Positions 1 to 34,582 of a stretch of 64,000 nt of DNA are shown here, piece after piece (positions within the stretch are counted from its first letter, which is position 1; the number at the start of each line of letters is the position of its first letter). Source of the DNA: Konateibacter massiliensis (GTDB lineage: Bacteria; Bacillota; Clostridia; Lachnospirales; Lachnospiraceae); NCBI RefSeq assembly GCF_900184995.1, contig NZ_LT860099.1, positions 2,608,332-2,672,331 on the forward strand. The letters are read 5' to 3'. The notes beneath the pieces were generated by a model. It made no database searches and had not been told where the DNA came from. It worked only from the letters and a program-made list of their open reading frames with translations. The position numbers and the translations under genes were made by a program.

Positions 1-1424
1 TTTTTAAGTACTTCTATTTTTTTGCCCTTTATTTTATAAATTCGATTGCAAACCTGCTTTAAATCGCTGCTGTTTACTGACAAAAATAAGAAGGATTTTT
101 TCTCGGCAAGGCATTTTTCTATATTTTCAATCATTCCATCCCATCTTGCATCATCCACATGTGCCCAAAACTCCTCCGCCACAATTAATTTAGAGCTGTT
201 CATACTCAGCCTGTGAAAAATAATACCCTCCCTCTCCTTCCAGCTGCAATCGTCAATCCGCTCCTTCGGCGGCATCTTATTTTTCTCCCGGTATTTTGCA
301 TAGATAAACTCCATAAAGGTTCGGTTCAAAAACAGCCTGCCCTTGCTTGTCCTCTTCATGCTGTTAATAATCAGATTTTCCTTGACCGAGAGATTGTGAA
401 ACAAATTGTTTTGAATATCAATCATATCAAGCTCATAAACTCCTTCAAAAACTGCCCGTTCATAACTATCCGGAACGTAAAATTTATTGTTTATCCACAT
501 ATACCAGTTCTGAAGCTGTCTTTTTCCCAGAATTTCTTCCAAAAAAGCATTAAGCTCCCCCGTGTTTTCAAAGATAATGCCTACACACTCCCCTTTTGCA
601 ATAAAAATCGGCTCTTTGCTCTGCCCTTCCCTGATTCGCAGTCGGAATAACTCGTCATCCTTTTTCTTACCTATCCAGTCTGCCTGCCTTGTGTGGCTCG
701 TCTGATTTACCATTTTACTTAAAATTTCTTTGTCCTCCGGTGTATCAAAAAAGGTTCTGACATTTTTTCCATGGTGCATTACAACAAGCTTATCCATATA
801 TTTTATTGTATTCATACATTTTCCTGTAATCCAGAGTATAGAAGTCCCCTTGCTCTGCAAAAATCGAATTGCCGAGAAGAGTTTGTCTCGCTCAGCAGGT
901 GTATAGATGTCAGCCATGTCATTTATGATAACAAGCCTTGCTTTTCTGCAGTACGCCTTTGCAAGCTTTACAATCTGCCTGTCAATCTTTGATATTTGTC
1001 CCGCTAACTTTTCGGGCGGAATACCGACTCCCATCATGTTGAGAATGTGTTCTGTCTCCCGATAAAGTATCCTTCTTGGCAAAGTGAAGCTAAACATATT
1101 TTGTTTCCACGACAAAAATATATTTTCGGCAACGGACATTCCCAAAACCAAGCCGGTATGGTCGGATACGGCAAATATGCCAAGCTTATCAGGCTTTATC
1201 GGCTCCCTAATGTCAAGAGGTTCTTCATTTATATAGATTCTGCCCGCCAACGCTGTATTCTGCCCCATTAAAAGCTCCGCGACCTCCTTTCTGCCACAGC
1301 CAAAATTGCCGTACAGTATGACAAACTCTCCCTCCAAAATATTTAATTTAAAATCAGACAATACCGCAGCACCCTTACTTTTCATCTCAATGTGCTCCAG
1401 CCTTACTATTTCATTTTTTATCAT
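1..1424 (-). CDS. Degenerate RbsA/MglA-type double ABC protein (partial, runs off left edge)
   Basis: The 474 visible residues have the layout of a sugar ABC ATPase (two ABC domains, normally about 500 residues). I translated the nucleotide-binding motifs and found every one altered. In domain 1 the P-loop reads GNFGCGRKE (no lysine in the GKS/T position), the signature reads AGQISKIDRQ, Walker B reads LVIINDMAD with no catalytic glutamate, and the H-loop reads LWITGK with no histidine. In domain 2 the P-loop region reads GIIFENTGELN and the signature region CSWKEREG. ATP hydrolysis is therefore unlikely. The ATG overlaps the end of the upstream kinase gene by 14 nt, so the two are translationally coupled. 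No permease or binding-protein gene is adjacent in the window. Inference: a pseudo-ATPase with a regulatory or adaptor role for the neighbouring kinase. The C-terminus lies outside the window. Confidence 0.8.
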   Translation of the reverse strand, partial: MIKNEIVRLEHIEMKSKGAAVLSDFKLNILEGEFVILYGNFGCGRKEVAELLMGQNTALAGRIYINEEPLDIREPIKPDKLGIFAVSDHTGLVLGMSVAENIFLSWKQNMFSFTLPRRILYRETEHILNMMGVGIPPEKLAGQISKIDRQIVKLAKAYCRKARLVIINDMADIYTPAERDKLFSAIRFLQSKGTSILWITGKCMNTIKYMDKLVVMHHGKNVRTFFDTPEDKEILSKMVNQTSHTRQADWIGKKKDDELFRLRIREGQSKEPIFIAKGECVGIIFENTGELNAFLEEILGKRQLQNWYMWINNKFYVPDSYERAVFEGVYELDMIDIQNNLFHNLSVKENLIINSMKRTSKGRLFLNRTFMEFIYAKYREKNKMPPKERIDDCSWKEREGIIFHRLSMNSSKLIVAEEFWAHVDDARWDGMIENIEKCLAEKKSFLFLSVNSSDLKQVCNRIYKIKGKKIEVLK

Positions 1425-2256
1425 ATTCTGCCTTTTCCTTTACAACCCGTGGCAAAACAATTTCCGCCTCTGTCCCGATACCCTTTACGGAAGAAAACGT
1501 CAGTCCATATTCCTCCCCATAAATCATCTGGATTCTCTGATTAATATTTGAAAGGGCAATTCCTCCCCTCCTATCCTCACTCTCCAGAATCTCCTTGTTT
1601 GTCCGCAGTCCTTCCTGTACTTTCCTCAGTATCTCCTCCGGCATTCCCGGCCCGTTATCCCAAACCGTGATAATAATTCTCTTTTCTGTTGCAAAAAGGT
1701 GCACCGTTACCTTGCCACCATTTATGTTTTTCTCAATACCATGGTAAATCGAATTTTCTACCAATGGCTGTAAAATCAACTTTGGCATTTGCGCATTCTC
1801 AATTAAATGCTTTTCGGTGTGATAGACCGTCTCGTATGCAATTCGCTGCTTAAACCGAAATTTCTGGATTCGAATATAACTTTCAATATTCTCAAGCTCC
1901 TCTCTGATGGTCACCAAATCGCTCTTTTTGCTGATGTTGTAGCGAAAATAGTCTGCAAGCGACTCCGACATCATCGCGGCATCCATGTCTCCATGCATAA
2001 GCGCTTCGCTTCGGATTGTCTCAAGCGTATTATATAGAAAGTGGGGATTAATCTGGTTTTGAAGGCTTGATATCTCAGCCTTTCTCTTATCCCGTAAAAT
2101 GTCATTTTCCTCTTCCAGCCTTGCCATAAGATGCCCAATAATTTTGCTGTAATATTCCGTTAGTTGAGAATTACTATATCGCCTCGGAAGAGGTATGCTC
2201 TCCGTTTTGTATTTTTTTGTCTCCTCGACTAATTTTTTATGCATATCTTTATTCAC
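1411..2256 (-). CDS. YesM/LytS-family histidine kinase without membrane segments
   Basis: A 281-residue protein starting with GTG, eight bases after a GGAGG site. It contains the His_kinase phosphoacceptor motif QINPHFLYNTL (His72) and the HATPase features ENSIYHGIE (N box) and DNGPGMP (G1 box). A short helical stretch (about residues 40-65, rich in Glu/Arg/Lys) precedes the phosphoacceptor. Family members normally carry two transmembrane helices and a Cache sensor and run near 580 residues; here both are missing and no hydrophobic segment is seen, so the protein should be cytoplasmic. It lies 14 nt after the response-regulator gene and overlaps the degenerate ABC gene, which suggests that the ABC-like protein or another partner supplies the signal (inference). 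Phosphotransfer partner: the regulator just upstream. Confidence 0.88.
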   Translation of the reverse strand: MNKDMHKKLVEETKKYKTESIPLPRRYSNSQLTEYYSKIIGHLMARLEEENDILRDKRKAEISSLQNQINPHFLYNTLETIRSEALMHGDMDAAMMSESLADYFRYNISKKSDLVTIREELENIESYIRIQKFRFKQRIAYETVYHTEKHLIENAQMPKLILQPLVENSIYHGIEKNINGGKVTVHLFATEKRIIITVWDNGPGMPEEILRKVQEGLRTNKEILESEDRRGGIALSNINQRIQMIYGEEYGLTFSSVKGIGTEAEIVLPRVVKEKAEYDKK

Positions 2257-2270
2257 CGCATTGTCCTCCC

Positions 2271-3887
2271 TTATGAATATAGCTTCCTATACTCTGAGGG
2301 CTTTAACCCCATATATTTTTTGCACAGCTTACGGAAATACTTTAAGTCTGCGTAGCCAACCTCCTCCGCTATGTTCGCAATCGCTTTATCCGTATTCCGA
2401 AGCAGCTCGGAGGCCTTTTCAATTCGCTTCGATACAAGATACTCAGAAAAGTTAGTTCCTGTCTCATTTTTAAACATTTTAGATAGATAATTGGGACTTA
2501 ACATAACTGCCTCCGCCACCAATTCAAGTGTAATCGGCTCCCGATAATGCTCTGCTATGTATTCCATCGCAAGGCGCAGCGGCTTTACCGTCGTATTTTT
2601 CATGGCATGCGCCACATAGTCAATGCTGTATTCTGCAAAGCCCTCTGCCGCTCTCCATATATCCTCAGCGGATATCGCATGGTCAATTTCCTCATTGTAT
2701 TTGATATATGCCTGCCGTTTCTCCTCCTCACTATCCGTTATCTCCTCCATATTTCCCTTCAGCCACATACCAAACTGAGCGGCATAATCATATAACAACA
2801 GCGGTGAACAGTTTTGTATCTTGGCGATATCCGACTTTGTTTTCAGGATACACCTGTGAAGTCCGTCCTTATTTCCTGTCTTTAAGCAATTTTTAATGAT
2901 TTCTTCTATCTCCCTCGTCAAAACAGTACTGATGTCTACCTCCTTATATTGGTATTTCTCATATTCCAATATGTGCTCCTCCTCGTTTACAATCCGGTAT
3001 TTCACGGCGGAACCGGCAGTTTGCATACACTCCCTGATATATTTAATATCCGTCTGCTTTGCACCGATACCTATCGTGAGCCGTAGATATTCAAATAAGT
3101 CCACCTGTTTTTCAAGGCTTTCGTATAGCCCTTGAATAAATGTTAAAAAACAGGTTGTCTTTTCAACGGGATAGTTAACCAGATAAATAATGCCCGTATG
3201 AGTTCTTGTCCCTGCATATTCGGAGCAAAAAGCCTTCATTTCAGCATCAATTTTCTCCTCCATGCGAAGCATAAGCTGTTCCAGCTCCTTATGAGCCTTG
3301 CTCACATCATCCAGCTTGAAAAAAATGGTCTGATATACTCCCTTCTGAAAATTTAGTTTATATTGTTCGTTGATATCCGTCTCTGCGATATCTTCATTGG
3401 AAGTCATACTGTTACCAAAGATATAGCTATTGATAAAATGTCTTTTTAGGTTATCCTTGTTCAGGTCTATGACCTTCTGCATCACCAGTTTGTCCTCTTC
3501 CACGTCCTTCTCCTGACGTATTCCGTTGCTGATCTGCTGCAGCGTCTCCACAAGCTCATCTTTTTTAATTGGTTTTAGCAAATAATCTACGGCACCATAC
3601 TTCATTGCTCCATGTGCGTATTCAAAATGCCGAAAGCCGCTTATAATGATGCATTTCAGCCTTGGCTGGTTATCCCTGCACCACTTAATCAGCTCAATCC
3701 CGTCACAGCCGGGCATGCGGGCGTCCGAAATTAATATGTCAATCCGCTGCTCCTTCAGTACCTCGATTGCCTCACCCCCATTGTGAAGCATGCAGACAAC
3801 CTGCATATCAAGCTCCTTCCACGGCACTAAATAGTGAATCAAATTGCAAATACTTTCCTCGTCATCTACGATTAAAACCTTTAACAT
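2271..3887 (-). CDS. YesN-like response regulator, AraC output
   Basis: A 539-residue regulator. Residues 1-120 form a receiver domain with the acidic pocket (VDDEE), phosphoacceptor Asp55 (ISDARMPG) and the conserved Lys in LLKPIKK. A long middle region of about 300 residues with no recognisable motif follows. The last 100 residues are an AraC-type double helix-turn-helix (LVAEAVMLSPNYLSKMFK; IANIAEEVGYADLKYFRK). I chose the ATG at 3887 because it follows GGAGGG at good spacing; an upstream in-frame start would add ten unsupported residues. First gene of the leftward operon RR-HK-ABC-like protein. Regulators of this family typically control carbohydrate uptake or degradation genes; the actual target here is unknown. 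Confidence 0.9.
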   Translation of the reverse strand: MLKVLIVDDEESICNLIHYLVPWKELDMQVVCMLHNGGEAIEVLKEQRIDILISDARMPGCDGIELIKWCRDNQPRLKCIIISGFRHFEYAHGAMKYGAVDYLLKPIKKDELVETLQQISNGIRQEKDVEEDKLVMQKVIDLNKDNLKRHFINSYIFGNSMTSNEDIAETDINEQYKLNFQKGVYQTIFFKLDDVSKAHKELEQLMLRMEEKIDAEMKAFCSEYAGTRTHTGIIYLVNYPVEKTTCFLTFIQGLYESLEKQVDLFEYLRLTIGIGAKQTDIKYIRECMQTAGSAVKYRIVNEEEHILEYEKYQYKEVDISTVLTREIEEIIKNCLKTGNKDGLHRCILKTKSDIAKIQNCSPLLLYDYAAQFGMWLKGNMEEITDSEEEKRQAYIKYNEEIDHAISAEDIWRAAEGFAEYSIDYVAHAMKNTTVKPLRLAMEYIAEHYREPITLELVAEAVMLSPNYLSKMFKNETGTNFSEYLVSKRIEKASELLRNTDKAIANIAEEVGYADLKYFRKLCKKYMGLKPSEYRKLYS

Positions 3888-5029: not shown

Positions 5030-6079
5030 CTATTCAAAGCAAACCGCTTCTCCACTCTCAGCTGACCTTCTGGCAGCCTCCATCACAGCAAGCACACGGC
5101 GGACTTCACTTATCTTTATTTTGAATTCCTCACGGCCGTTAATCGCCTCCGTTACATTCCGGTAAAATTCAACCCAGTCCGTCTCTACCATCGGCAGCTC
5201 CTCGGTCACAATGCCGCCGGGCGGTACGGGAGCAAATTGTCTGGTTGGTCCTGCTACCGTCTCTGTTATCTGAGGAGGCAGCTTTTTTAATAATTCTCCT
5301 GTATGATAAATTTTGCCTTCACAGCTAAAGTCCTTGATAACCAAGGTTCCCTTGTCGCCACCTACAAGCCATCTCGGCTGATAATCTAAAATATAGGTGG
5401 AGAGTTCAATATGCGCTGTCACGCCGTTATCCAGCTTCAGAATAATCTTGAAATAATCATCTACCTCCTCGTGGAGTACATTTTTGATATCTGCGTACAG
5501 TGATTTGATTTTTGCCTCAGGCATCATGTACAAAATCTGATCAATCAGATGAACACCCCAGTCGTAAATCATTCCGCCTCCAAACTTTTGATACAGATGC
5601 CACTCATGCATGTATCCGTTTCCGGAGTGAAGCTTTGATTCAATCGTGAATATCTTTCCAAGCCTTCCCTCCTCATACGCCTTTTTTACAATGAGCATAT
5701 CTCTGTCCCATCTTCTGTTTTGATGAACGGTAAAGGCAACCTTTGCAGCCTTGCATGCCTTCTCCATCTCGTCAAGCTCCGCCACACTCATCGCCGCCGG
5801 CTTTTCTGCGATTACATTTTTTCCTGCCCTTGCAGCCTTTAAGCACATTTCATGGTGCAGGTGATTCGGAACGGTAAGAATTACCGTGTTTACCTCTTTA
5901 TCCGCAAGCAACTCCTCAGTTGAGGAATAGGTGAGATATCCGTCATTTTTTCCCTGCGCTATTTTTTCTTTGTCAATATCACAGACTGCGGCTATCTCCA
6001 CTCCCGCGCGGGGTGCATTTTTTGCATGCCATTTTCCCATGCCGCCGTAACCTATTATTCCAAGCTTAATTGTCTTCAT
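5030..6079 (-). CDS. Gfo/Idh/MocA-family oxidoreductase (second of the operon)
   Basis: A 349-residue NAD(P)-dependent sugar oxidoreductase. The N-terminal Rossmann fold starts KLGIIGYGGMGKWHA; the family lysine is in EKPAAMS and the active-site aspartate/histidine are in YDWGVHLID. Start: ATG at 6079 sits at better distance from AGAGG than the in-frame GTG at 6091, which overlaps that site. The gene follows the TIM-barrel gene by 14 nt and is last in the five-gene operon. In C-glycoside and 3-keto-glycoside pathways a second Gfo/Idh enzyme may handle the released 3-oxo sugar, for instance reducing it and recycling NADH. That role is an inference. Family membership is secure, substrate is not. 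Confidence 0.88.
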   Translation of the reverse strand: MKTIKLGIIGYGGMGKWHAKNAPRAGVEIAAVCDIDKEKIAQGKNDGYLTYSSTEELLADKEVNTVILTVPNHLHHEMCLKAARAGKNVIAEKPAAMSVAELDEMEKACKAAKVAFTVHQNRRWDRDMLIVKKAYEEGRLGKIFTIESKLHSGNGYMHEWHLYQKFGGGMIYDWGVHLIDQILYMMPEAKIKSLYADIKNVLHEEVDDYFKIILKLDNGVTAHIELSTYILDYQPRWLVGGDKGTLVIKDFSCEGKIYHTGELLKKLPPQITETVAGPTRQFAPVPPGGIVTEELPMVETDWVEFYRNVTEAINGREEFKIKISEVRRVLAVMEAARRSAESGEAVCFE

Positions 6080-6093
6080 CTTTTTATTCACCT

Positions 6094-7014
6094 CTAAATC
6101 ACAAAATTTCTTAGGTAGACAGCACTTAGCACAAGCGCTTTTTTTGCATCGTCGGGCGATTTCTCGAATGCCTTATCTTCCACCTCGATACAGCTATAGC
6201 CTTCATAGCCGATATCCGTCAGGGCACTCACATATTTTCCCCAGTCAACATCCCCAAGCCCCGGAAGTTTCGGGGACATAAAGTCGAGCGGATATGCCAT
6301 AATACCGACCTGATTTCGTTTTTCCTCATATACCTTGATATCTTTATAATGAACATGAAAAATTTTATCCCGAAACTCATAAATCGGTTTGACATAGTCA
6401 ATCATCTGCCACACAAAATGAGACGGATCATAGTTAATGCCGAGATTTTTGCTTGGAAGAATCTCAAATACTTTTTTCCAGATATCCGGTGTCGTCATTA
6501 GATTTTGGCCACCCGGCCACTGATCCGGCCCAAAAAGCATCGGGCAGTTTTCAATTGCAATTTTTACGTTTTCCCGCTCTGCCATCTCGATAATGGGCGG
6601 CCAGATTTCTTTTACAAGCTTTAGGTTTTCCTCCACAGTCTTTGTCTGGTCACGGCCGATAAAAGTCGTCACCATACCGACTTTAAGCCGGCTGCTTGCT
6701 AAAATAACATTTTTTAAATGCTCTATGATACCCTCTCGCTTTTGAGGGTCAGGGTCCATTGTATTTGGGTAAAAGGCAAGGGAAGAGAGTTCAACTCTTT
6801 TTTCCCTTGCATAATCTATGATGCGGTCTGCATATTTCGCATCCTCTAAAACGCGCTCTGCATCAATATGGCTCACTCCTGCATATCTTCTCTCCGCCTT
6901 ACCGCTTGGCCAGCAAGCCACCTCGACACATTCAAAACCGTTAGCCGAGGCAAAATCCATCATTTCCTCATAGCTGCTCTGATCCAAAATCGCACTTACA
7001 AATCCAAGCTTCAT
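6094..7014 (-). CDS. Sugar phosphate isomerase/epimerase-like TIM barrel
   Basis: A 306-residue AP-endonuclease-2-type TIM barrel. Probable divalent-metal ligands are visible in the usual order: Glu in VKIAIENCP, Asp/His in NYDPSHFVWQ, His in HVHYKDI and Glu in CIEVEDK. Length and motifs fit canonical isomerases/epimerases (IolE, YcjR and relatives). It lies 14 nt downstream of the probable C-deglycosidase alpha subunit and 14 nt upstream of a Gfo/Idh gene. Known relatives include YcjR, a 3-keto-glycoside C4-epimerase, so action on a 3-oxo-sugar intermediate is plausible. It is only distantly similar to the neighbouring alpha-subunit gene, so the two should have different jobs. Confidence 0.85.
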   Translation of the reverse strand: MKLGFVSAILDQSSYEEMMDFASANGFECVEVACWPSGKAERRYAGVSHIDAERVLEDAKYADRIIDYAREKRVELSSLAFYPNTMDPDPQKREGIIEHLKNVILASSRLKVGMVTTFIGRDQTKTVEENLKLVKEIWPPIIEMAERENVKIAIENCPMLFGPDQWPGGQNLMTTPDIWKKVFEILPSKNLGINYDPSHFVWQMIDYVKPIYEFRDKIFHVHYKDIKVYEEKRNQVGIMAYPLDFMSPKLPGLGDVDWGKYVSALTDIGYEGYSCIEVEDKAFEKSPDDAKKALVLSAVYLRNFVI

Positions 7015-7028
7015 ACTTTGCCTCCCAT

Positions 7029-8015
7029 CTATTTAATGCCCAAAATTTTCTTTTCCATTGCAATCTGTCTTTTTGTAAATTCTGTACCGCCGCAGCCAAT
7101 CTCATCCTCGTATTCGCAGATGATATAGCCGCCGTAGTCTGATTCCTTTAACACCGCTAAAATCTCGCCATAAGGGATACTCGGCTCCACGCAGTCTTCA
7201 CTTAAATAGTGAAACTTTCCGTGCATTTCAAAGCAGTAAGGCAGTATTTCCTTCAAGCTTTCAAGGAGAGCCGGCAGTTCCGACTTCGGGCGGAACTGTA
7301 CAAAACCGTACATTCCTTGAATTACCATGTTAATCATCGGATGTGCGCCTGCTGCTGACAATGTCTTTGTTGTCTCCTCCATGGAAGCACCCTCTGTTCT
7401 CATCTTCGCGGCAAGCTGTAAATATTCCTCCTTCACTCCTGCCTTCAACGCCTTATCCCAATGCGGCTTATTCGGTGCCACCGAAAAACAGCCAAAGTCC
7501 GGTACAAATCCAAGATATTTGGAGCCCGTTCTTTTGATAACCTTTAAGTATTCCTGTATCTTAGGGGAGGAAGGGGTTTCCGGGTTATGAATTTCAATTC
7601 CTACCTTCACATCATAAAGCTCTGCGTATTCTGCCAGCCTCTCAAATGCTTCAGGAGAAAGCATATACTGTGCACGCATCACCTTGCAGCCCAGCTTATT
7701 TGCTGCCTTCAAATCAATAATTGCATCCGCAAGCATCTCATCATCTGTCAGATTGCGGTCCCAGCGCATTCCCTTGTCATTGTTTGCTCCATAGCCCACA
7801 GGAGCAATCTGGTATTTTGCCTTTAGCTTATTTACAAGCCCCAGAAATTCATCACTTACATTCGGATAGGAAGGAATCATCTGTGTTGCAACAATCTCAT
7901 ATCCCGTCGCACCGGCTAATGCCGCCTGCTTTACACACTCCTCAAAATCATATTCATATCTGGCATACTCTGTCCCATAGCAAAACAGCGTTGCTCCCAA
8001 TTTAATATTGCTCAT
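7029..8015 (-). CDS. Probable C-glycoside deglycosidase alpha subunit (DfgA/DgpC-like)
   Basis: A 328-residue TIM barrel of the sugar phosphate isomerase/epimerase superfamily. Candidate metal ligands and catalytic residues are Glu141 and His143 (VGIEIHNPE), Asp173 (FVPDFG), His265/His269 (EMHGKFH) and Glu301 (ICEYEDE). In characterised C-glycoside deglycosidases a histidine two residues after the metal-binding glutamate acts as base, as I recall from DfgA/DgpC studies, and that E-x-H pattern is present. The decisive context is the DUF6379 beta-subunit gene just upstream (13 nt) and a DgpA-like oxidoreductase before it. The enzyme would cleave the C-C bond between sugar and aglycone after C3 oxidation. 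The substrate, and whether it is a C- or O-glycoside, cannot be read from sequence. Confidence 0.75.
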   Translation of the reverse strand: MSNIKLGATLFCYGTEYARYEYDFEECVKQAALAGATGYEIVATQMIPSYPNVSDEFLGLVNKLKAKYQIAPVGYGANNDKGMRWDRNLTDDEMLADAIIDLKAANKLGCKVMRAQYMLSPEAFERLAEYAELYDVKVGIEIHNPETPSSPKIQEYLKVIKRTGSKYLGFVPDFGCFSVAPNKPHWDKALKAGVKEEYLQLAAKMRTEGASMEETTKTLSAAGAHPMINMVIQGMYGFVQFRPKSELPALLESLKEILPYCFEMHGKFHYLSEDCVEPSIPYGEILAVLKESDYGGYIICEYEDEIGCGGTEFTKRQIAMEKKILGIK

Positions 8016-8028
8016 CTTATTTCCCTCC

Positions 8029-8463
8029 TTAATTTAAAATTTCTACCGTTACGCTGTCTCCGCTGTCCAGTGGCATAAACATATGGTCCGGTCCAAGCTC
8101 CATATAAGGCACGCGAAGCATTAGCTTTAAGGTAAGTTCATGTGTTCCGGCAGATAATCCTCCCTTTTTAATAACGCGGATTTTTGCCGGCACGACCTGA
8201 CTCCAAAATTCCGTCATCGCATAATTCAGCTTATAGAGCGGCATTTCTTTACCGTTTAACTCAAATGTAACCGCTTCTTTCGGCATCAGTTCTCCATCCG
8301 CATATACTTCAAGCAGCTCGATATCAGACAGATAATGACCTCTATAATAAGCAAGCTGAGCATCAAATTCAAATCCGTTTTTCTCTCCGTTAATATATAT
8401 ACTTTTCACCGTAGATTTCTTGATAATCTCCTCATTTAACTTCATTCTCATTGCAAATCCCAT
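8029..8463 (-). CDS. DUF6379 protein, probable C-glycoside deglycosidase beta subunit
   Basis: A 144-residue beta-rich protein. The stretch YYRGHYLSDIELLEVYADGE and the later GGLSAGTHELTLKLMLR and MLRVPYM are patterns I recognise from the small subunit of C-glycoside deglycosidases (DfgB/DgpB, DUF6379). In those enzymes the small subunit packs on the TIM-barrel subunit and completes the active site. The ATG at 8463 follows GGGAGGT by 6 nt; the TTG 15 nt upstream overlaps that site and is rejected. The gene sits between the DgpA-like dehydrogenase and the alpha subunit with gaps of about 14 nt, consistent with co-translation of a complex. Confidence 0.8.
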   Translation of the reverse strand: MGFAMRMKLNEEIIKKSTVKSIYINGEKNGFEFDAQLAYYRGHYLSDIELLEVYADGELMPKEAVTFELNGKEMPLYKLNYAMTEFWSQVVPAKIRVIKKGGLSAGTHELTLKLMLRVPYMELGPDHMFMPLDSGDSVTVEILN

Positions 8464-8478
8464 GTCAATACCTCCCAA

Positions 8479-9585
8479 TTATTCAAAAACAATTTCCTTT
8501 CCCTCTTCTGCGGAACGATAAATTGCATCTAATATTTTTGTCACCATAAATGCTTCCTCTGGTTGTACAAGCGGCTCTGTGTTATTTTGTACTGACAAAA
8601 GCCACTGCTCACAGTCAACCGTTCCCTCGGCTCCGCCGCCTCCGCCAAAATACGCAACGCCTCCTACCGGAGAGAGTGTTTCCTCCATAAGCTGCCCGTT
8701 TCTTCCTCTGTTGTAAATCAGTTCATTTTTAGAATGGCTCATGCCGGAATGAATCTCTGCTCCTGCAAGAGTACCGCAAAGTGTTGTGGACGCTTCCCTT
8801 GACTCCAGCACATTCAATGCCCAGCTTGCCTCCAAATTAATTGTTGCGCCGTCCTTCATCTTGATAAAGCCCATTGCCGAATCCTCAACCTCAAACGTCT
8901 TTGGGTCCCACGGACCAAACAGATTGCCCTCTGTTGCCTGCTGCAAATTTCCCAATTTATAAAATACGGAGCCGGATACGCTTTTTACATCGTAGTTGTC
9001 CATGCACCAGAGCGTGATATCAAGCGCATGTGTTCCGATATCAATGAGCGGTCCGCCGCCCTGCTGTGACTTGTCAGGAAATACACCCCAAGTCGGCACT
9101 CCTCTGCGGCGAACTGCATGTGCTTTTCCATAGTAAACCTCTCCAAGTTCTCCGTTTTGGCAGGCATTGTGCAGATTTTGCACCTCCTGGCGAAAGCGAT
9201 TCTGGTAACCTACTGTAAATTTCTTTCCGGACTTCTTCCAAGCTTCCATCATTTTCTCCGCCTCAACAGTATTGTGCGCCATCGGCTTTTCGCAGTACAC
9301 ATTTTTATCTGCTTCAAATGCCGCCACCGTAATTTCGCTGTGAGAGACATTCGGTGTACATACATGGACAATATCGATGGATTTGTCCTTTAAAAGTTCT
9401 CTGTAGTCCGTATATATCTTGGCATCCTCTGCTCCAAATTCCTTCGCAGCCTGCACTGCACGCTCCTTTACAATGTCACAAAATGCCACAATCTCACATA
9501 AATTTGCATTTGCCTTTAATGCCGGAAAATGCTTTTGGTTTGCGATACCTCCGCATCCAATTATACCTATTTTTAATTTCGCCAT
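8479..9585 (-). CDS. DgpA-like glycoside 3-dehydrogenase (Gfo/Idh/MocA family)
   Basis: A 368-residue oxidoreductase with Rossmann motif IGIIGCGGIANQKHFPA, family lysine in CEKPMAHN and the catalytic aspartate/histidine pair in LIDIGTHALD. The start of the protein, including the GGIANQKHFP segment, and its length resemble DgpA, which oxidises the C3 hydroxyl of the sugar of puerarin to give a 3-oxo-glucoside before C-C cleavage. The sequence also resembles YcjS-type glucoside 3-dehydrogenases. First gene of the leftward five-gene operon, followed directly by the beta and alpha deglycosidase genes. Family is certain, glycoside 3-oxidation likely, natural substrate unknown. Confidence 0.8.
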   Translation of the reverse strand: MAKLKIGIIGCGGIANQKHFPALKANANLCEIVAFCDIVKERAVQAAKEFGAEDAKIYTDYRELLKDKSIDIVHVCTPNVSHSEITVAAFEADKNVYCEKPMAHNTVEAEKMMEAWKKSGKKFTVGYQNRFRQEVQNLHNACQNGELGEVYYGKAHAVRRRGVPTWGVFPDKSQQGGGPLIDIGTHALDITLWCMDNYDVKSVSGSVFYKLGNLQQATEGNLFGPWDPKTFEVEDSAMGFIKMKDGATINLEASWALNVLESREASTTLCGTLAGAEIHSGMSHSKNELIYNRGRNGQLMEETLSPVGGVAYFGGGGGAEGTVDCEQWLLSVQNNTEPLVQPEEAFMVTKILDAIYRSAEEGKEIVFE

Positions 9586-12289: not shown

Positions 12290-13354
12290 CTAATCCAACA
12301 TCCTAATATACTCCTGCACATTATCATAAGTAATCTTCTCATACGGCAGATAAACATATTTATCATCAACCAGATTCACATCCTCCGGAATCTCCTGACC
12401 CACAGAAAGAGCATAAGCTATCTGCACAATGGCTTTCGCCTGTCCTCTGTAATCATGGTATACCGTTCCAACCATTTCCTTTTTCTTTACACTGTCAAGT
12501 CCTGCCGGAATGCCGTCCACTCCGACAATAATCGGATATTGCTGTATTTTGCTGTTTTTCAGGGCCTCAAGTGCCCCTAATGCCATCTCGTCGTTGTTGG
12601 CAAAGATGATTTCTATCTCCTCACCAAACTCCTCGAGCCATGCGGAAGCCTTTGTGATTGCCTGTACACGGCTCCAGTTGGCGATTTCATCGCCGAGCTT
12701 TTGAAGTGTATAGCCGGCATCTGTCACTGTTTTCACGGAATTTTCCGTTCGAATCATGGCATCCTGATGCCCTGGCTCGCCCTCCAGCATTACATATTGC
12801 AATATGCCGTCACCGTTTTTGTCAATTCCGTCAAAGTTTTCCTCCAGAGCATCTATAATAATTTCTCCCTGCATATTGCCCGAGTCTGCAGCATTGGCGC
12901 CCACATAATAAAGCTTATCCCATCGCTCCATATCCTCTTTTACTAGCTCCCGGTTAAAAAATACAATTGGAATATCTGCGCTTTTACATTTTTCAATTAC
13001 TCCGGAGGCGTCGGTTCTGTCCACCAATCCGACGCAGACAACATCATAATTTTTATCTACAAAGCTTTCAATCTGGTCATTCTGGGTAATCTGACTTCCT
13101 CCACAGCCCTGTATTTCCAAGGTGATGGCGATTCCATCCTCCGTCTCCTTCTGCTTTGCCCACGCCGTTATCTCCTGCATTAAGGTCATCATGTAGGTAT
13201 CATACTCATCATAGATGCTAACTCCTATTTTAATACTTTTAATCTCATGTGACTCCTGCTGCTGCTTGGAATACTCTCGAACTCCCAAAAACAAAATAAC
13301 CGCTATCACAATAATTGAAACAAGTCCAATTTTCAGCTTATTTTTTCCACTCAT
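12290..13354 (-). CDS. Membrane-anchored galactose/glucose-binding-protein-like sensor
   Basis: A 354-residue periplasmic-binding-protein type 1 domain behind one N-terminal hydrophobic helix (IGLVSIIVIAVILFLGV). There is no lipobox cysteine, so it is held by an uncleaved anchor rather than as a lipoprotein. The loop DKNGDGILQ matches the calcium-binding loop of MglB-type glucose/galactose-binding proteins. RBS AAGGAG precedes the ATG. Because the gene lies in an operon with a kinase and regulator and not next to the permease, it is best read as an extracytoplasmic sensor partner, as in XylFII-LytS systems, rather than a transport component. Probable ligand: an aldohexose or related sugar. 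Confidence 0.82.
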   Translation of the reverse strand: MSGKNKLKIGLVSIIVIAVILFLGVREYSKQQQESHEIKSIKIGVSIYDEYDTYMMTLMQEITAWAKQKETEDGIAITLEIQGCGGSQITQNDQIESFVDKNYDVVCVGLVDRTDASGVIEKCKSADIPIVFFNRELVKEDMERWDKLYYVGANAADSGNMQGEIIIDALEENFDGIDKNGDGILQYVMLEGEPGHQDAMIRTENSVKTVTDAGYTLQKLGDEIANWSRVQAITKASAWLEEFGEEIEIIFANNDEMALGALEALKNSKIQQYPIIVGVDGIPAGLDSVKKKEMVGTVYHDYRGQAKAIVQIAYALSVGQEIPEDVNLVDDKYVYLPYEKITYDNVQEYIRMLD

Positions 13355-13394
13355 GCCGTTTTCTCCTTCTATTATGGGTACTAAACAGTCACTT

Positions 13395-14351
13395 CTACTT
13401 TACAAACGGGAAAAGAACCCGCTCATTTTCCGGCAAATACAATGTCTCATCATTTACAATATGATATTTAATATAGTTTGACATTTCCTTTTCATTATAG
13501 TTTTCTTTTCCGAGAAGGCTTTCAATCCCTATATAGCCGATACTGAATTCGTCCTGATAAACGAGATTTTTTATCCTTCCGGTATCCAGATAGTACACGG
13601 CTTTGTCTGAATTGGCTATCCCGTATATTTTTACCTTTTTGTTCAGGTTTAGGGTTGCATCAATAACCGCTTCCAGAGAAGTATTATCGAGTGCCACAAC
13701 CACGTCCACGGCCTCCGCCACCAGTTCCCTCTGGGCAGAAATCATAGGGCGGCTTTCCCCCTCTTCCCTTCTCCAAAAAGTAAAATTGTAGAATTTCTCC
13801 ACCACCTTGTTATAGAAGCCCTCATATCGCTCCTTCACACTGTTTCGCTGCTGATTGTCCATCACGATAGCAATTTTTGCAATCGGACTTTCCTGCGCTA
13901 TGACCTCAAGTGCCAGACTCTCTCCCATCGTGTAATTATCGGCACTCACCAAGTTTATCCTCTGGTCATTCACCCCGGATTCCACACAAATAATCGGAAA
14001 ATCTTTTGACGGAAAGGAAATACTGCTCAAATCCATATCACTGTCACTTGCCGCAAGAATAATACCTTCTGCTCCGTTATCAATCTCTCTTTGTATCAAG
14101 GAAAGCTGCTCCTCTGAATTCGTATCTGTTGACATAACTACAAAATTTATCTCGGCACCATAATCCTTGCCAGCCTGCTCAATGCCCTGTTTTAAGCTGT
14201 CCCATCTGTCTATTGTATTTCCGTATAAAATAGCGGAGATGTACTTCGGCTCTTCCACCTTTTTGTCGCTGTACATGCGGATAGAAACGGCAATAAGCAA
14301 AAAGGCTATTGCAACACCTGACGCAATTAAAATCATCCTTTTATTTCTCAT
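13395..14351 (-). CDS. Membrane-anchored RbsB-like sugar-binding sensor protein
   Basis: A 318-residue protein with an N-terminal transmembrane helix (MILIASGVAIAFLLIAVSI) and a type 1 periplasmic binding fold (YISAILYGNTIDRWDSLKQG; IDNGAEGIILAASDSD; VVVALDNTSLEAVID). No lipobox. Its ATG overlaps the stop of the kinase gene by 11 nt, so production of binding protein and kinase is coupled. It differs clearly from the second binding protein that follows it by 40 nt. Likely role: ligand-binding input to the Cache kinase, not transport. Confidence 0.82.
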   Translation of the reverse strand: MRNKRMILIASGVAIAFLLIAVSIRMYSDKKVEEPKYISAILYGNTIDRWDSLKQGIEQAGKDYGAEINFVVMSTDTNSEEQLSLIQREIDNGAEGIILAASDSDMDLSSISFPSKDFPIICVESGVNDQRINLVSADNYTMGESLALEVIAQESPIAKIAIVMDNQQRNSVKERYEGFYNKVVEKFYNFTFWRREEGESRPMISAQRELVAEAVDVVVALDNTSLEAVIDATLNLNKKVKIYGIANSDKAVYYLDTGRIKNLVYQDEFSIGYIGIESLLGKENYNEKEMSNYIKYHIVNDETLYLPENERVLFPFVK

Positions 14352-16140
14352 TTTTTTCCTCCTTGTACTTTATTTTCGGAAGATGAATGAGAATAGTCGT
14401 TCCCTCATCTAGCTCACTTTTAATTTGTAAGCCATACGGCTCACCATAATACAATTTGATTCTCTGATGAACATTGATAAGTCCGATACCTGAGCCTCTC
14501 TTTCTCGCTCTGCTGTTGTCCGTCAGTAAAAGCTCCTGTTCTTCAGCTGGGATACCCATTCCGTTATCGGATACCTCGATAAAAATATCGCCCTGCTCCT
14601 CATAACCTCGTATCGTAATCTCTCCCTCGTCGCGCATAGATTCCACGCCATAATAGATAGCATTTTCAAGAAGCGGCTGTACAATAAGCTTAATTGTGCT
14701 GTACTCTTCTATCGCAGGGTCAATCTCTGTCTTCACACTGAACTGGTCCTTGTAGCGTACCTTCTGGATTTTTAAATAGTTGTCGGCATGCTGTATTTCA
14801 TCCTTAATCGAAATGATATTCTTTCCTTTGCTGAGGCTGATACGAAAAAGACTTGCAAGGGCTGTTACCATCGAAATTGCCTCGGGATACCGCTCTGATT
14901 CCACCATCCATACAATGGAATCCAGTGTATTATAAAGAAAATGCGGGTTTATCTGTGACTGCAGTGCATCCAGCTCACTCTTTTTCTTTGCCTCCTGCTC
15001 CTTCACGATATCGTCCATCATATTTTTCATCTGATTTACCATAGACGTAATCGTGCTTCCCAAATGCTGGATTTCATGAGGACCTTCCGTGTAAATATTA
15101 GAATTTAAGTTTCCGTTTTCCAACTCGCGCACAGATTCCTCCAGCTTTCGGATCGGATTGGTCACCTTTTCGGAAATCAATATATTACCGATAATAATAA
15201 CAATAATCGAAACCCCCAGTATACTGAAGGTAAAAAATTTGAACTGATTTAAATTAGTCGAAATCTCCCTAATCGGTGTCACGCTTATAATTTTCCACCC
15301 GGTATATCCCACCGTTTTTACAATAACAGCGCGTTCCTCCCCTTCATATTTTTCAATATGGCTTCCGTCCTCGTATTTTGCCGCCATATAATTATTCTCC
15401 GACATGAGATTCGTGTAAATCATCTTCTGCTTTGGATGATAAATAATCTCTCCTTCTCCGTCTGTCAGATAGACGTAGCCCTCTCCCTTGGCGTTTACCT
15501 TTGAAAAGAGCTGCTCAATATCACTGAAGTTCATATCAACAAGCAAAATACCGCGGCTTGTATTGCCATAGTAGTTAAGACTAACCACACGGCTTAGGGA
15601 TACCACCCAGTAATAGCGAAAATTGCTGTCATCAAACAAGTCCTGCACGTGGGGTGTTGAAAAATGCAGGTTTTCTATTTTCCGGTTGGCTTGTACAAAC
15701 CAATCCTGATTGTAGACACTAACCTTCTCCTTCATTGTACCAATCGGGGAGGCTGCAATCAGCTTCCCCATATTATCAAAACAGGCAATACTGATTAAAT
15801 TATTTTTGTTTGCCTCATATAAAAGTGCCATCTCCTTGTTCATGTCCTCATATCCCAAATCTTTACCCTTGATTACGCTGTAGTACATCGTATCGGATAT
15901 GTTCATCATATTTCGGATATAAGTATCCAGATTTAACCCCGCTTGGTCAATAAGCTGTTTGTTTTTCTGATTGACAAGCTCAATCGAATTTTCCGTATAC
16001 TTCTCATATAAGGTCAAGCCGACAAAGCCCATACTGATAATGGCAATCGCCGTAAAAGATATGGACACGGTAAACTGTATGCTTCTTCTCTGATAGGTTT
16101 TCGTAATACGCCTGATAAACTGGTTAATTTTATCCTTCAT
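14341..16140 (-). CDS. YesM-type sensor histidine kinase with Cache domain
   Basis: A 599-residue kinase: transmembrane helix near residues 25-48, extracellular dCache-type sensor (about 50-290), second transmembrane helix (FFTFSILGVSIIVIIIGNIL), HAMP linker (NPIRKLEESVRELENG), phosphoacceptor motif SQINPHFLYNTLDS and an HATPase domain (ENAIYYGVE; DNGMGIP; GSGIGLINV). Length is typical. The ATG overlaps the stop of the response-regulator gene by 11 nt and its own stop overlaps the binding-protein start, giving a tightly coupled sensory unit. The stimulus is probably a sugar bound by the two anchored binding proteins. Confidence 0.92.
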   Translation of the reverse strand: MKDKINQFIRRITKTYQRRSIQFTVSISFTAIAIISMGFVGLTLYEKYTENSIELVNQKNKQLIDQAGLNLDTYIRNMMNISDTMYYSVIKGKDLGYEDMNKEMALLYEANKNNLISIACFDNMGKLIAASPIGTMKEKVSVYNQDWFVQANRKIENLHFSTPHVQDLFDDSNFRYYWVVSLSRVVSLNYYGNTSRGILLVDMNFSDIEQLFSKVNAKGEGYVYLTDGEGEIIYHPKQKMIYTNLMSENNYMAAKYEDGSHIEKYEGEERAVIVKTVGYTGWKIISVTPIREISTNLNQFKFFTFSILGVSIIVIIIGNILISEKVTNPIRKLEESVRELENGNLNSNIYTEGPHEIQHLGSTITSMVNQMKNMMDDIVKEQEAKKKSELDALQSQINPHFLYNTLDSIVWMVESERYPEAISMVTALASLFRISLSKGKNIISIKDEIQHADNYLKIQKVRYKDQFSVKTEIDPAIEEYSTIKLIVQPLLENAIYYGVESMRDEGEITIRGYEEQGDIFIEVSDNGMGIPAEEQELLLTDNSRARKRGSGIGLINVHQRIKLYYGEPYGLQIKSELDEGTTILIHLPKIKYKEEKNEK

Positions 16141-17764
16141 TATTTTCTACCTGACTGGCACGGTATTTCGACGGCGACATCCCATACTCCTTTTTAAACA
16201 CATAGCTGAAATAATTCGGCTCCGCATAACCCACCTGTCCCGCTATCGTGTATGCCTTCTCGGAGGTGGTGCTCAAAAGCCTGAGTGCCTGCTCCATTCG
16301 AACCTTTGTTAAGTAATTCACAAATCCCATGCCCGTTTCCTTCTTGAATATTGTGGAAAAATAGGCGGCACTTACATTTAGCATCCCACAGATAACATCA
16401 ACCGACAGCTCTTGATTGCTATAATTTTCATCGATATACTGGATTGCCTTCTGGGTGATGAGCTTTGCCGTATCTGTCCGCTCCCTTCGAATAAGCTTTC
16501 GAACCTGCATACAGATAGAAAGCAGCCATTTGCCTATCTCCTCAATGCTGTCAAACTTGCTGATATCCTGGTACAGGTTAAAATCCTCGCCTGTAACCTG
16601 CTCTATATCCACCTCGTAAACCCTGCCAAGCTTTATGATTTCCACAAATATTTCCATCAGAAAAAGCTGTAGCTGAGAAATGGATATTTTGTAGTGCTTC
16701 ACTTTCGCCATTAACTGGTTAATTGCTCTTTCAAGGTCCTCGTGACTGCCGACCTTGATTCCCTTCATAATGTTTTGAACCTCATTTTCGTCGATGCTGA
16801 TACGCTCCTCTGACTTTGGCTCAATATCCTGAATGTAAATTGCCTGGTTTGGCTCGAGCAAAATTTTATATTCAAACGCACTTTTCGCACCTGCATAGGA
16901 ATTGGATAAGCCGGATAGGCTGTCACATGTCTGCCCGATTCCCACGGAAGTGTTTACGTTTAATATTCTGGAAATTATTTTACAAATTTGATTCATACTG
17001 TTTATAAACCTGCTGATATCATTGTTTTTCTCAAGCAGCGCAATGACAACAACCCAGTCCAGATAAATAAAGCTTCGATAGGAAAACAGGTTGTCCAGAT
17101 TTTCCTCCACAATCTGCTTCTGGGAAACCGAAAGAAGCTGGGAGTACATAACCTCCTCGTTATTCCTATCTTGGTTCTCTCTGCTGATAGACTCCGAATG
17201 TAGGACTGCCACCGCATAATACGGTGCCTCCAGCTCGCTGTCATATAAATTTTTTAACTCTTCTATTTTATTTTTCTCTAATTTTCCCTCTAATAAGCTT
17301 CCCATAAAACGTTCCTTCATTACAGGAAGGCTTTCAAAATAACACTTTTTCAAATTATCAATGTTTCGTTTCTCTTCAATTTCATCATCAAGACTTTTTT
17401 TAATTCTCTCAAACACCAGCTTTAACTGCTCTGCATCAATCGGCTTTAATATATATTCCTCCACCTCAAGCTGAATTGCCTCTCTCGCATATTCAAACTC
17501 ATCATAACCGGAGAATATAATAATCTTGGTATTCTTCGCTATCGTCTTCAGTCTCCTGCACATGGTGAGTCCGTCCATAAAAGGCATATGAATATCCGTC
17601 ATAACGACGTCAGGTCTGAGATTTTCCGCCAGTTCCAACGCTTCTTCTCCGTTTTCGGCATATCCCACCACCTCAAAGCCGGCTTCCTCCCAATTTAACT
17701 TTTTAATAATCGCCTGTCTGACTTCTTCTTCGTCATCTACAAGCATTACACTGTATTTACTCAT
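16130..17764 (-). CDS. YesN-type response regulator, AraC output
   Basis: A 544-residue protein: receiver domain (VDDEEE; phosphoacceptor Asp57 in MTDIHMPF; Lys in ILKPID), a long central region of about 280 residues, and a C-terminal AraC double helix-turn-helix (VICGMLNVSAAYFSTIFKKE; IAGQVGYAEPNYFSYVFKKEYG). The GGAGG site lies 6 nt before the ATG. First gene of the sensory operon and directly downstream, in the leftward sense, of the ChvE/Mms transporter operon, the most likely target set together with the glycoside genes. Confidence 0.92.
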   Translation of the reverse strand: MSKYSVMLVDDEEEVRQAIIKKLNWEEAGFEVVGYAENGEEALELAENLRPDVVMTDIHMPFMDGLTMCRRLKTIAKNTKIIIFSGYDEFEYAREAIQLEVEEYILKPIDAEQLKLVFERIKKSLDDEIEEKRNIDNLKKCYFESLPVMKERFMGSLLEGKLEKNKIEELKNLYDSELEAPYYAVAVLHSESISRENQDRNNEEVMYSQLLSVSQKQIVEENLDNLFSYRSFIYLDWVVVIALLEKNNDISRFINSMNQICKIISRILNVNTSVGIGQTCDSLSGLSNSYAGAKSAFEYKILLEPNQAIYIQDIEPKSEERISIDENEVQNIMKGIKVGSHEDLERAINQLMAKVKHYKISISQLQLFLMEIFVEIIKLGRVYEVDIEQVTGEDFNLYQDISKFDSIEEIGKWLLSICMQVRKLIRRERTDTAKLITQKAIQYIDENYSNQELSVDVICGMLNVSAAYFSTIFKKETGMGFVNYLTKVRMEQALRLLSTTSEKAYTIAGQVGYAEPNYFSYVFKKEYGMSPSKYRASQVENNEG

Positions 17765-17800
17765 ATAACCTCCAGATGTGTTGTTTTTCTTATTACATGA

Positions 17801-17856
17801 ATTATAACCATTTATTGATATTATGTAAAGAATCGAAACAAAGCGGACAAGTCCGC
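17801..17856 (-). promoter_or_regulatory. Promoter of the sensory operon plus an upstream palindrome
   Basis: On the minus strand TTTACA (17829-17824), 17-bp spacer, TATAAT (17806-17801), about 37 nt before the regulator start codon. Immediately upstream (17843-17856) is the perfect 14-bp palindrome GCGGACAAGTCCGC, centred close to -50, a position suited to an activator or repressor. The binding protein is unknown. Confidence 0.7.
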
Positions 17857-17877
17857 ATCAACAACTTCATGATATGA

Positions 17878-17919
17878 AAACAACTAGCAATTCTGTTTTT
17901 GCAAAATTACTAGTTGTTT
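17878..17919 (-). terminator. Terminator after the mms transporter operon
   Basis: Imperfect stem of about 18 bp (AAACAACTAGTAATTTTG pairing with its complement, two mismatches), 6-nt loop, then TTTTC on the minus strand. Lies 32 nt after the permease stop. Confidence 0.65.
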
Positions 17920-17951
17920 CAATATATAAATTTCTATTACTCTTTTTTCAA

Positions 17952-19121
17952 TTATGCTGCTTTACGTTTTGATAATACGTCGAAGGTTACGGCACCAAGT
18001 AAAACGATACCTTTTACTACCTTCTGGATATCAGTTGACCAGCCAATCAAGGACATACCATTGTTTAAGATACCCATGATGAAAGCACCTACAACCGCTC
18101 CCATGATAGTTCCGATACCACCTGCTGCTGCTGCACCACCGATGTAACAAGAACCGATTGCATCAAGCTCGAAACCGTCACCTGCTTTTGGTGTTGCGGA
18201 AGCGTTACGAGCGGATAATACAATACCTGCTACCGCTGCCAAAACACCCATGTTTGCATAAACCCAGAAGAATACTTTTCTTGTATCAATACCCGAAAGT
18301 CTTGCTGCCTTTGCGTTACCGCCCAATGCATAAATCTGGCGTCCCGCTACGGTTTTGCTCGTAATGAAGTGGTAAACACCTACCAAAATTCCCATTAATA
18401 CAAGTACATATGGAATTCCGTTGTAGGTTGCAAGCTTAAAGAAGAAGAACCATACAATTGCAAGTATTACAACTAATTTTATGATTGTCTGCCACATTGG
18501 ATTTGTAGCAAAGTTATAGCTTTTCTTTGTTTTGATATTTTTTAATTCTGATAAAATAATAAGAACACTTGCAATAGTTGCAATTAAAACGCAAACCAAA
18601 TCAATTGTTCCGGCTCCAAACGGAACCTTTACCGTCGGAATAAATCCGGCTCCAATCCATGTGTAATCACCCTGAAGAGGTCCTTTTGTCTGTGCCTTTA
18701 AGATTGTGTATGTAAGACCACGTCCCATAAGCATCGTTGCAAGCGTTACAACGAAAGGAGGAATATCAAGGTAAGCAATAAAGAAACCTGTGAATAAACC
18801 TGTAAGTAATCCTACTGCCAAAGCTGCCAAGAAGGCAACCGGTACTGCAACCTTCATATCTACTACTAAAATAGCTGCTGTTGCACCGCTTAATGCTACT
18901 ACTGAACCTACACCCAAGTCGATGTTACCTGTTAATACACATAGGAGCATACCTACTGCAAGGATAACAACATATCCGTTTTGCATAACAAGGTTGTTAA
19001 TGTTTGTTGATGAAGCGTTTTTTCCGCCTGATAAAATATAAAATAAGATAAAGATGGCGATCAGTGCAATTACCATTCCATATTGTTTCATGTCAAGATT
19101 GACTGTCTTTTTATTCTCCAT
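17952..19121 (-). CDS. mmsB: MmsB/GguB-type monosaccharide ABC transporter permease
   Basis: A 389-residue integral membrane protein of the RbsC/BPD_transp_2 family with about ten hydrophobic segments and the conserved GLLTGLFTGF and FVVTLATMLMGRGL segments and the late ALGGNAKAARLSGI loop, the usual site of contact with the ATPase. Start chosen at 19121: AAAGGAG lies 7 nt before this ATG, while the longer reading frame overlaps the ATPase gene. Last gene of the binding protein - ATPase - permease operon. With ChvE-like and MmsA-like partners it forms a multiple-monosaccharide importer. Confidence 0.9.
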   Translation of the reverse strand: MENKKTVNLDMKQYGMVIALIAIFILFYILSGGKNASSTNINNLVMQNGYVVILAVGMLLCVLTGNIDLGVGSVVALSGATAAILVVDMKVAVPVAFLAALAVGLLTGLFTGFFIAYLDIPPFVVTLATMLMGRGLTYTILKAQTKGPLQGDYTWIGAGFIPTVKVPFGAGTIDLVCVLIATIASVLIILSELKNIKTKKSYNFATNPMWQTIIKLVVILAIVWFFFFKLATYNGIPYVLVLMGILVGVYHFITSKTVAGRQIYALGGNAKAARLSGIDTRKVFFWVYANMGVLAAVAGIVLSARNASATPKAGDGFELDAIGSCYIGGAAAAGGIGTIMGAVVGAFIMGILNNGMSLIGWSTDIQKVVKGIVLLGAVTFDVLSKRKAA

Positions 19122-19123
19122 TT

Positions 19124-20674: not shown

Positions 20675-20753
20675 ATTTTTTCAACTCCTTTGTCTTATTA
20701 GGAAACGGGCGGCAGCCATATGCCGCCGCCCATATTTTTGCAATTCTTTCTGA

Positions 20754-21929: not shown

Positions 21930-22055
21930 ACGTGAAATCCTCCTTAATGATTTTTTGTATTTTTGCTCCCTTGTTGTTACTTTCACAGTATAGCAAAAAA
22001 AATATACAAGTTACATACGATATTCTTCTCAAATCTATAAAATTTATTGGCTAAA

Positions 22056-34558: not shown

Positions 34559-34582
34559 AAGGTGTTTCTAGAGAGGTGTACT

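Follow-up and report, generated by a model that had tools for sequence, protein, structure and literature searches.

Transporter-coupled kinases are already known. In the Bce-type modules (BceAB-BceRS of Bacillus subtilis), as described in excerpts of PMC10314905 and PMC6978683, a kinase without a sensing domain is encoded with an ABC transporter that acts upstream of it in the signal path, and in PstSCAB-PhoU-PhoR, according to an excerpt of the latter source, a non-transporting protein joins importer and kinase. The three-component systems CuaDSR and XylFII-LytS, as excerpted from PMC10384115, combine a YesM/LytS-like kinase, an AraC-type regulator, and a sugar-binding protein whose docking site is a large kinase domain outside the cell (in CuaS, with helices at 30-49 and 316-339). 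The locus analyzed here comprises a YesN-type regulator, a YesM-type kinase, and an RbsA-like tandem-NBD pseudo-ATPase (pABC), a trio encoded on the minus strand, in which the link to the transporter seems to be a copy of a transport ATPase, dedicated and conserved but catalytically dead. As in Bce-type modules, a kinase lacking an extracellular sensing domain is encoded beside an ABC transporter, but this transporter is an RbsABC-type sugar importer (a BPD_transp_2 permease with an RbsA-like ATPase, rather than a BceAB-type transporter with BceB), the kinase belongs to the His_kinase/YesM class, the regulator is AraC-type, and the dead ATPase is an extra subunit. As in the Pst system, a non-transporting protein, the role proposed for pABC, would connect importer and kinase, but this link, unlike the unrelated PhoU, has an ABC ATPase fold and would have arisen from the ATPase of the transporter itself. 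The trio loci contain the same three part types as CuaDSR and XylFII-LytS, whereas their kinases have no comparable extracellular domain for binding-protein docking (absent from 40/40; length 281–368 aa). A pseudo-ATPase paired with a YesM kinase was not found in the open-access PMC literature searched, although other literature could hold one. We estimate at roughly 60% the probability that the trio works as a two-component system coupled to a transporter for sugar or glycoside uptake, with the pseudo-ATPase connecting RbsC permease and kinase.

The three genes lie at the left end of the window, i.e., the whole 64,000-nt stretch of DNA analyzed (Table 1). They are closely packed or overlapping, as stated in the initial annotation, with 14 nt between regulator and kinase and a 14-nt overlap between the kinase and ABC genes, and a C-glycoside deglycosidase gene lies upstream. 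The pABC gene ends 4 nt beyond the window edge (full protein, 475 aa), and this edge splits the operon: past it are encoded a sugar-binding protein, an intact RbsA, and an RbsC permease. A second cluster of the same kind is present in the same genome. The partner initially suggested, a nearby ChvE/Mms sugar transport system, corresponds to a cluster at 12290–21986, which we rejected because it owns a YesM-type kinase with a dCache domain (14341–16140), a two-domain ATPase, a permease, and three binding proteins, an inventory that leaves out a 544-aa frame at 16130–17764. The likely partner is instead the SBP-RbsA-RbsC operon directly downstream of the trio, left of the window edge.

Table 1 Features of the trio locus, in window coordinates.
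Feature	Position	Strand	Details and basis
YesN-type response regulator, receiver and AraC-type DNA-binding domain	2271..3887	(-)	538 aa; Response_reg and HTH_18 (Pfam)
YesM-type histidine kinase	1411..2256	(-)	281 aa, GTG start; His_kinase and HATPase_c (Pfam)
pABC, RbsA-like tandem-NBD pseudo-ATPase	3..1424	(-)	One ABC_tran domain, 22-167 (Pfam)
Degenerate NBD1 P-loop GNFGCGRKE, residues 39-47	1284..1310	(-)	Residue comparison with relatives
NBD1 Q-loop and post-Q-loop stretch, residues 86-103, candidate permease-docking surface	1116..1169	(-)	Conservation; role inferred from LptB
NBD2 post-Q-loop stretch, residues 338-355, candidate permease-docking surface	360..413	(-)	Conservation; role inferred

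pABC resembles RbsA-type (CUT2) ATPases in its full-length homology, its two NBDs, and the adjoining genes for RbsC and a binding protein. The NCBIfam AraG and RbsA models cover residues 5–466, marking it as a tandem-NBD homolog of RbsA/AraG/MglA, but it reaches 108 bits with the best NCBIfam model, whose cut-off is 689. An AlphaFold2 model (pLDDT 79) has two NBD-like halves and matches the ABC ATPase fold; a fold search with this model placed general ABC NBDs on top and was uninformative on subfamily. None of the best 60 of 144 matched solved structures was labeled as an RbsA-type ATPase, so that the docking surface is not mapped on a true relative.

In NBD1 of the window protein, the P-loop Lys is replaced by Arg, the Walker B Asp by Asn, the catalytic Glu by Asp, the H-loop His by Gly, and the Q-loop Gln by Asp; ISKIDRQ occupies the signature position. 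NBD2 has FENTGELNA at the P-loop, CSWKEREG at the signature, and Glu for the Walker B Asp. The changes include every loss initially described (P-loop Lys, catalytic Glu, signature, and H-loop His in NBD1; P-loop and signature in NBD2). The degradation extends to the family in that not even one complete catalytic site (P-loop Lys, Walker B Asp, catalytic Glu, and signature) occurs in the window protein or its 43 relatives (0/44), so that the refuting case of homologs with intact motifs, named in the initial annotation, did not arise, while such sites are present in RbsA from the same loci. Lys, Asp, and Glu of NBD1 never occur together, and the NBD2 signature glycines and Walker B Asp are each absent from all 44; relatives are nonetheless partly less degraded than the window copy, with the NBD1 P-loop Lys alone retained in 19/44. 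Automatic annotation probably takes these proteins for ordinary sugar ABC transporter ATPases.

The regulator-kinase-pABC order, proposed as a search target in other Lachnospiraceae, was found there, in further families of the Clostridia, and outside that class. An intact kinase gene lies directly upstream of 40 of the 44 pABCs and of none of 49 RbsA-like controls, and a 4-nt overlap is common to 11 of 29 kinase-pABC junctions. Three further trios were detected outside the class; L168–L170 are excluded from the 44, as is L068, a near copy of L067. Some loci count against a coupled system: L154 encodes pABC alone, with no kinase, regulator, or transporter within the fetched 19 kb, and in L066–L068 pABC is separated from the kinase, which in L066 and L068 is followed by an intact RbsA. 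One named-genome scan used MSFMDNL and MKKEILRM as queries, so the common N-terminus in L059–L071 is partly a selection effect; of the 15 loci that it gave, two (L072 and L073) are non-trio, and L070 contributes just a piece of pABC where the stretch ends. The profile searches were kinase-independent and scored 4–5 candidates per genome (8 in the search of 200 family genomes, 4 in another), hence pABC counts are minimum values. Trios and plain RbsAs are not fully separated by a score gap, with trios at 340 (L121) and 331 bits (L122) and a plain RbsA at 318 (L123); in another profile search the gap runs from 416 to 339 bits, with plain RbsAs at 339 (L166) and 333 (L167). Counts cover profile matches down to these scores.

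pABC could also be a functionless RbsA duplicate, decaying or drifting neutrally, and the long branches in the tree and the position of the window pABC as the most distant of 30 are compatible with it. The check for relaxed selection envisaged in the initial annotation nevertheless returned low dN/dS values (0.049 and 0.068) for two close pABC pairs, both among relatives of the window gene, which suggests that these proteins are not decaying. No close ortholog of the window pABC was recovered by the P0001 search of 200 family genomes and 3 genus genomes, so dN/dS is not computable for it. A single branch separated all 44 pABCs from 40 RbsAs (SH-aLRT 100) in a quick tree whose long branches, above all L021 and L122, were flagged by the program as possibly misplaced. 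The trio is also kept together while transporter gene order varies among loci. Given the dN/dS values, the separate branch, and the conservation pattern described below, we rejected simple decay, and a functionless pABC of any kind is highly improbable.

The trio kinases and regulators retain intact active sites, including the receiver residues in all 42 aligned regulators. The window kinase has H, N, and G boxes and no sensor domain, and no hydrophobic segment was found in it; other YesM-type frames of the same genome span 494–659 codons in 24 of 25 cases. The earlier description of a soluble, sensorless kinase thus stands for the window, but solubility is not a family rule, since the other 39 trio kinases all carry an N-terminal hydrophobic stretch and the missing membrane helix is peculiar to this copy. 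Membrane anchoring of 39/40 kinases bears on the idea that pABC is a cytoplasmic ligand sensor, binding ATP or a sugar metabolite and controlling the kinase without permease contact. Solubility of the window kinase would suit such a sensor, as would the P-loop Lys of 19 pABCs, which makes nucleotide binding possible in some. Yet the ATP-site columns are the most eroded of the protein and the analysis revealed no new conserved pocket; we regard this sensor as quite unlikely.

Coupling through the permease agrees better with where pABC is conserved. The segments by which known ABC ATPases hold their permease are among its best-conserved parts: relative to RbsA, conservation is 88% in the post-Q-loop stretches, 53% in ATP-site columns, and 69% in others. 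At the sequence level, this pattern fits docking onto an RbsC-type permease, although the post-Q-loop stretch is structurally needed in any NBD as well, and the window pABC deviates from family positions (e.g., Lys at 377, where 41/44 have Glu). Distances were compared across 30 loci, after dropping near copies (L063, L067, L156, L159, and L160) and loci short of any of the five proteins. Controlling for RbsA, pABC distances track those of the kinase (0.65), and controlling for the kinase they track those of RbsC (0.47); kinase and RbsC show no such relation once pABC is controlled for (0.10, p 0.12). Against this, pABC and RbsC correlate at just 0.16 with RbsA held (p 0.09), and the pABC-regulator value (0.44, kinase held) is at least as high as that for pABC and kinase (0.23, regulator held).

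Alternatively, pABC could be an adaptor on a working RbsABC complex or on RbsA, reporting flux or throttling transport while RbsA keeps its permease seat. RbsA is encoded within the fetched stretch of 33/44 pABC loci, and BceS reportedly throttles the ATPase of BceAB (excerpt of PMC10314905). However, pABC retains its tandem architecture together with the two post-Q-loop stretches, as seating on a permease dimer would need, beyond what binding another subunit would, which makes the adaptor an unlikely alternative, if less so than the ligand sensor.

The preferred reading, a pseudo-ATPase linking RbsC to the kinase, has as its computed basis the conserved trio, the adjoining RbsABC genes, a selected non-catalytic pABC, kinases lacking an extracellular domain, intact kinase and regulator active sites, and preferential post-Q-loop conservation. 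Because a dead ATPase copy is encoded beside a kinase without its own sensor, the transporter itself probably reports the presence of sugar to the cell. An RbsA duplicate may have lost ATP hydrolysis while retaining its two-domain shape and RbsC-gripping stretches; a loaded binding protein engaging the permease would then move pABC and switch the neighboring sensorless kinase, and the phosphorylated YesN regulator would raise expression of the transporter operon. In this scheme we infer pABC-RbsC and pABC-kinase binding, which way the signal runs, and which promoter is controlled. The initial interpretation, in which the dead ATPase docks on a sugar permease and reports transport state to a cytoplasmic kinase, is as a whole partly supported. 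More tentatively, subunits might be exchanged: an RbsC dimer with RbsA would be an importer, and with the dead RbsA copy a transmembrane sugar receptor signaling to the kinase, in which case the window kinase, having given up its anchor, would be held at the membrane only via the pseudo-ATPase. If the preferred reading is true, a pseudoenzyme signaling subunit operates across several anaerobic Bacillota families, encoded near genes for sugar and glycoside breakdown; such a subunit would account for the way sensorless kinases learn which sugar is outside, and offer a clean test case for a kinase reading the state of a permease. A dead RbsA-like copy beside a sensorless kinase occurs in many anaerobic Clostridia.

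The YesN-type regulator, the YesM-type kinase and the RbsA-like tandem-NBD pseudo-ATPase (pABC) are three closely packed genes, as first annotated, all on the minus strand, with a 14-nt overlap between the kinase and pABC genes (see table). Beyond the left window edge, the operon continues in the same direction with genes for a Peripla_BP_4 binding protein of 359 aa, a 494-aa RbsA whose motifs are intact, and a BPD_transp_2 RbsC-type permease (316 aa). A second cluster on another contig of this genome reads regulator-kinase-pABC-binding protein, followed by PTS- and glycosidase-like genes and then RbsA-RbsC.

Features of the window and of trio loci (L-numbers) from genome searches
Feature	Position	Strand	Remark
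YesN-type regulator	window 3887..2271	minus	
YesM-type kinase	window 2256..1411	minus	
RbsA-like protein (pABC)	window 1424..3	minus	gene end 4 nt past window; 475 aa
Gfo/Idh dehydrogenases, TIM-barrel proteins, PF19906 gene	window 5030-9585	minus	upstream of trio
C-glycoside deglycosidase beta subunit	window 8029-8478	minus	PF19906, 7.9e-33
Second sugar transporter cluster: three Peripla_BP_4 binding proteins, permease, two-domain ATPase, YesM-type kinase with dCache + HAMP	window 12290-21986	minus	
AraC-type regulator fused to Peripla_BP_2 domain, then FecCD permease, ABC exporter-like protein	window 34562-41443	plus	
Chemoreceptor (methyl-accepting chemotaxis protein) adjoining trio locus	L066:11853-13889		
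Chemoreceptor (methyl-accepting chemotaxis protein) adjoining trio locus	L106:11635-13365		

The losses ascribed to the window pABC were borne out: in NBD1 the P-loop Lys is Arg, the catalytic Glu is Asp, the H-loop His is Gly and the signature is absent, and NBD2 has neither P-loop nor signature. The Walker B Asp is also missing from both domains, as is the Q-loop Gln from NBD1. Its predicted fold is a tandem ABC NBD (mean pLDDT 79, pTM 0.55, model from 13 sequences), with 238 residues of NBD1 superposing on 1g6h at rmsd 3.1 (Z 25.1) and the best-ranked Foldseek matches being mostly DppABCD and OppABCD two-NBD ATPase chains. The loss of a complete catalytic site, whose conservation had been put forward as a check, is shared by homologues: none of 44 pABCs compared combines the NBD1 Lys, Asp and Glu, and both the signature glycines and the Walker B Asp of NBD2 are missing from all 44, compared with presence of these residues in 33/33 RbsAs (P-loop Lys 32/33, one being cut by its stretch). 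The NBD1 P-loop Lys is retained in 19/44 pABCs, so that some may bind ATP. Relaxed selection, named in the initial annotation as a sign of simple decay, was not indicated by dN/dS (NG86) in two close pairs of relatives, where pABC values were low (0.049 for L062/L063, 0.068 for L066/L067; RbsA, 0.025 in L062/L063 and 0.041 in L066/L068). A single branch separates all 44 pABCs from 40 RbsAs (SH-aLRT 100), which is compatible with, though not proof of, a single origin.

The gene order recurs widely. A scan of named genomes gave 15 loci, including Anaerosacchariphilus, Anaerobium, Robinsoniella, a candidate Blautia and Ruminiclostridium cellobioparum, and a 13-pABC profile gave 23 matches of at least 366 bits in 21 of 299 family genomes. 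Seventeen of the 23 were new to the profile, and 16 of these are immediately preceded, on the same strand, by an intact YesM-type kinase gene (a split kinase frame in the other), a positive answer to the proposed search of other Lachnospiraceae for the arrangement; two lower-scoring loci (L121, L122) are trios too. A 32-pABC profile added 12 genomes from five other families among 391 class genomes, 11 of them with trios, and 299 phylum genomes yielded regulator-kinase-pABC-RbsA in three more from outside the class. In the compared set, an intact kinase lies directly upstream of 40/44 pABCs, the remainder being L066 and L067 (kinase farther along), L105 (split kinase) and L154, as against 0/49 RbsA-like genes (1.5 kb flanks); in L066 and L068, however, an RbsA comes after the kinase. 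RbsA is present within the fetched stretch at 33/44 pABC loci (one cut by the stretch end); transporter position varies (downstream, upstream or divergent) and the trio remains together. With starts called mechanically, 11/29 kinase-pABC junctions have a 4-nt frame overlap. The kinase frame in pieces 5' of the L105 pABC (L105:6550-7590) may stem from a sequencing error; otherwise the gene is broken. The L154 pABC (L154:8615-10069) stands alone, adjoining an ileS-like gene, and neither kinase nor regulator nor transporter was recognised within 19 kb; its partners may lie elsewhere in its genome.

The window kinase was described as lacking both membrane helices and a sensor, and hydropathy indeed finds no hydrophobic stretch in it, but helix loss is not shared: by hydropathy, 39/40 trio kinases (281-368 aa, n=40) carry an N-terminal hydrophobic stretch, single or two a few residues apart, with no space for an extracellular domain. 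In the genome of the window, this kinase domain occurs in 25 further frames, 24 of 494-659 codons and one of 212. The acceptor His and N-box Asn are present in 42/42 aligned kinases and the five receiver residues in 42/42 aligned regulators. Judged from sequence, the trio is a system with intact signalling chemistry and no sensing of its own.

Conservation of pABC relative to RbsA is 53% in ATP-site columns, 69% in other columns and 88% in the post-Q-loop stretches (ATP vs post-Q, p = 2e-10; post-Q vs other, p = 2e-4; leaving out three long branches gives a similar result). Both post-Q-loop stretches rank among the best-kept segments of pABC, and LptB F90, R91 and L93 fall in the same stretch. 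These NBD-groove residues are the contact site for permease coupling helices, according to PMC5082905. Four positions are pABC-specific and not kept in RbsA (E5 44/44, R8 42/44, E377 41/44, Y378 37/44; the window pABC has Lys at 377), and these are a candidate kinase contact. Across 30 loci, pABC distances track those of the kinase when RbsA is controlled for (0.65, p 0.001) and those of RbsC when the kinase is controlled for (0.47, p 0.001), whereas no such link joins kinase and RbsC after control for pABC (0.10, p 0.12). This pattern suits pABC as a bridge. Shared ancestry is a possible cause as well, and two results run against the simple reading: pABC tracks RbsC at only 0.16 (p 0.09) after control for RbsA, and tracks the regulator too (0.44, controlled for the kinase).

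Most likely, through contacts that we infer throughout, the kinase reads the state of the RbsC permease via pABC. A sugar-loaded binding protein would dock on the RbsC dimer, pABC, in place of RbsA or beside it, would move, and the kinase would sense this movement and phosphorylate the regulator, which would then raise operon expression. Bce modules, which pair a transporter without transport with a two-component system without a sensing domain (PMC10314905), and PstSCAB-PhoU-PhoR (PMC6978683) work alike, yet the trio belongs to neither, differing in permease, kinase class and link protein. It differs also from CuaDSR, for which PMC10384115 describes a large extracellular domain of the kinase as the docking site of the binding protein. 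Among the papers listed by searches of the open-access PMC literature, none describes a pseudo-ATPase in such a signalling role.

The second pABC cluster of this genome also has a PF19906 gene (in the stretch L022:369-2883), and the window system could plausibly be induced by a glycoside or a keto-sugar. Trio neighbours elsewhere include D-lyxose isomerase (L110), class II aldolase (L109) and PfkB with ROK (L107); given these varied neighbours and the chemoreceptors in L066 and L106, which may share a binding protein with the trio locus, the module probably serves many sugars. Within the window, the second sugar transporter cluster is a conventional counterpart to the trio, and the AraC-Peripla_BP_2 fusion places a binding-protein domain in cytoplasm-facing use.
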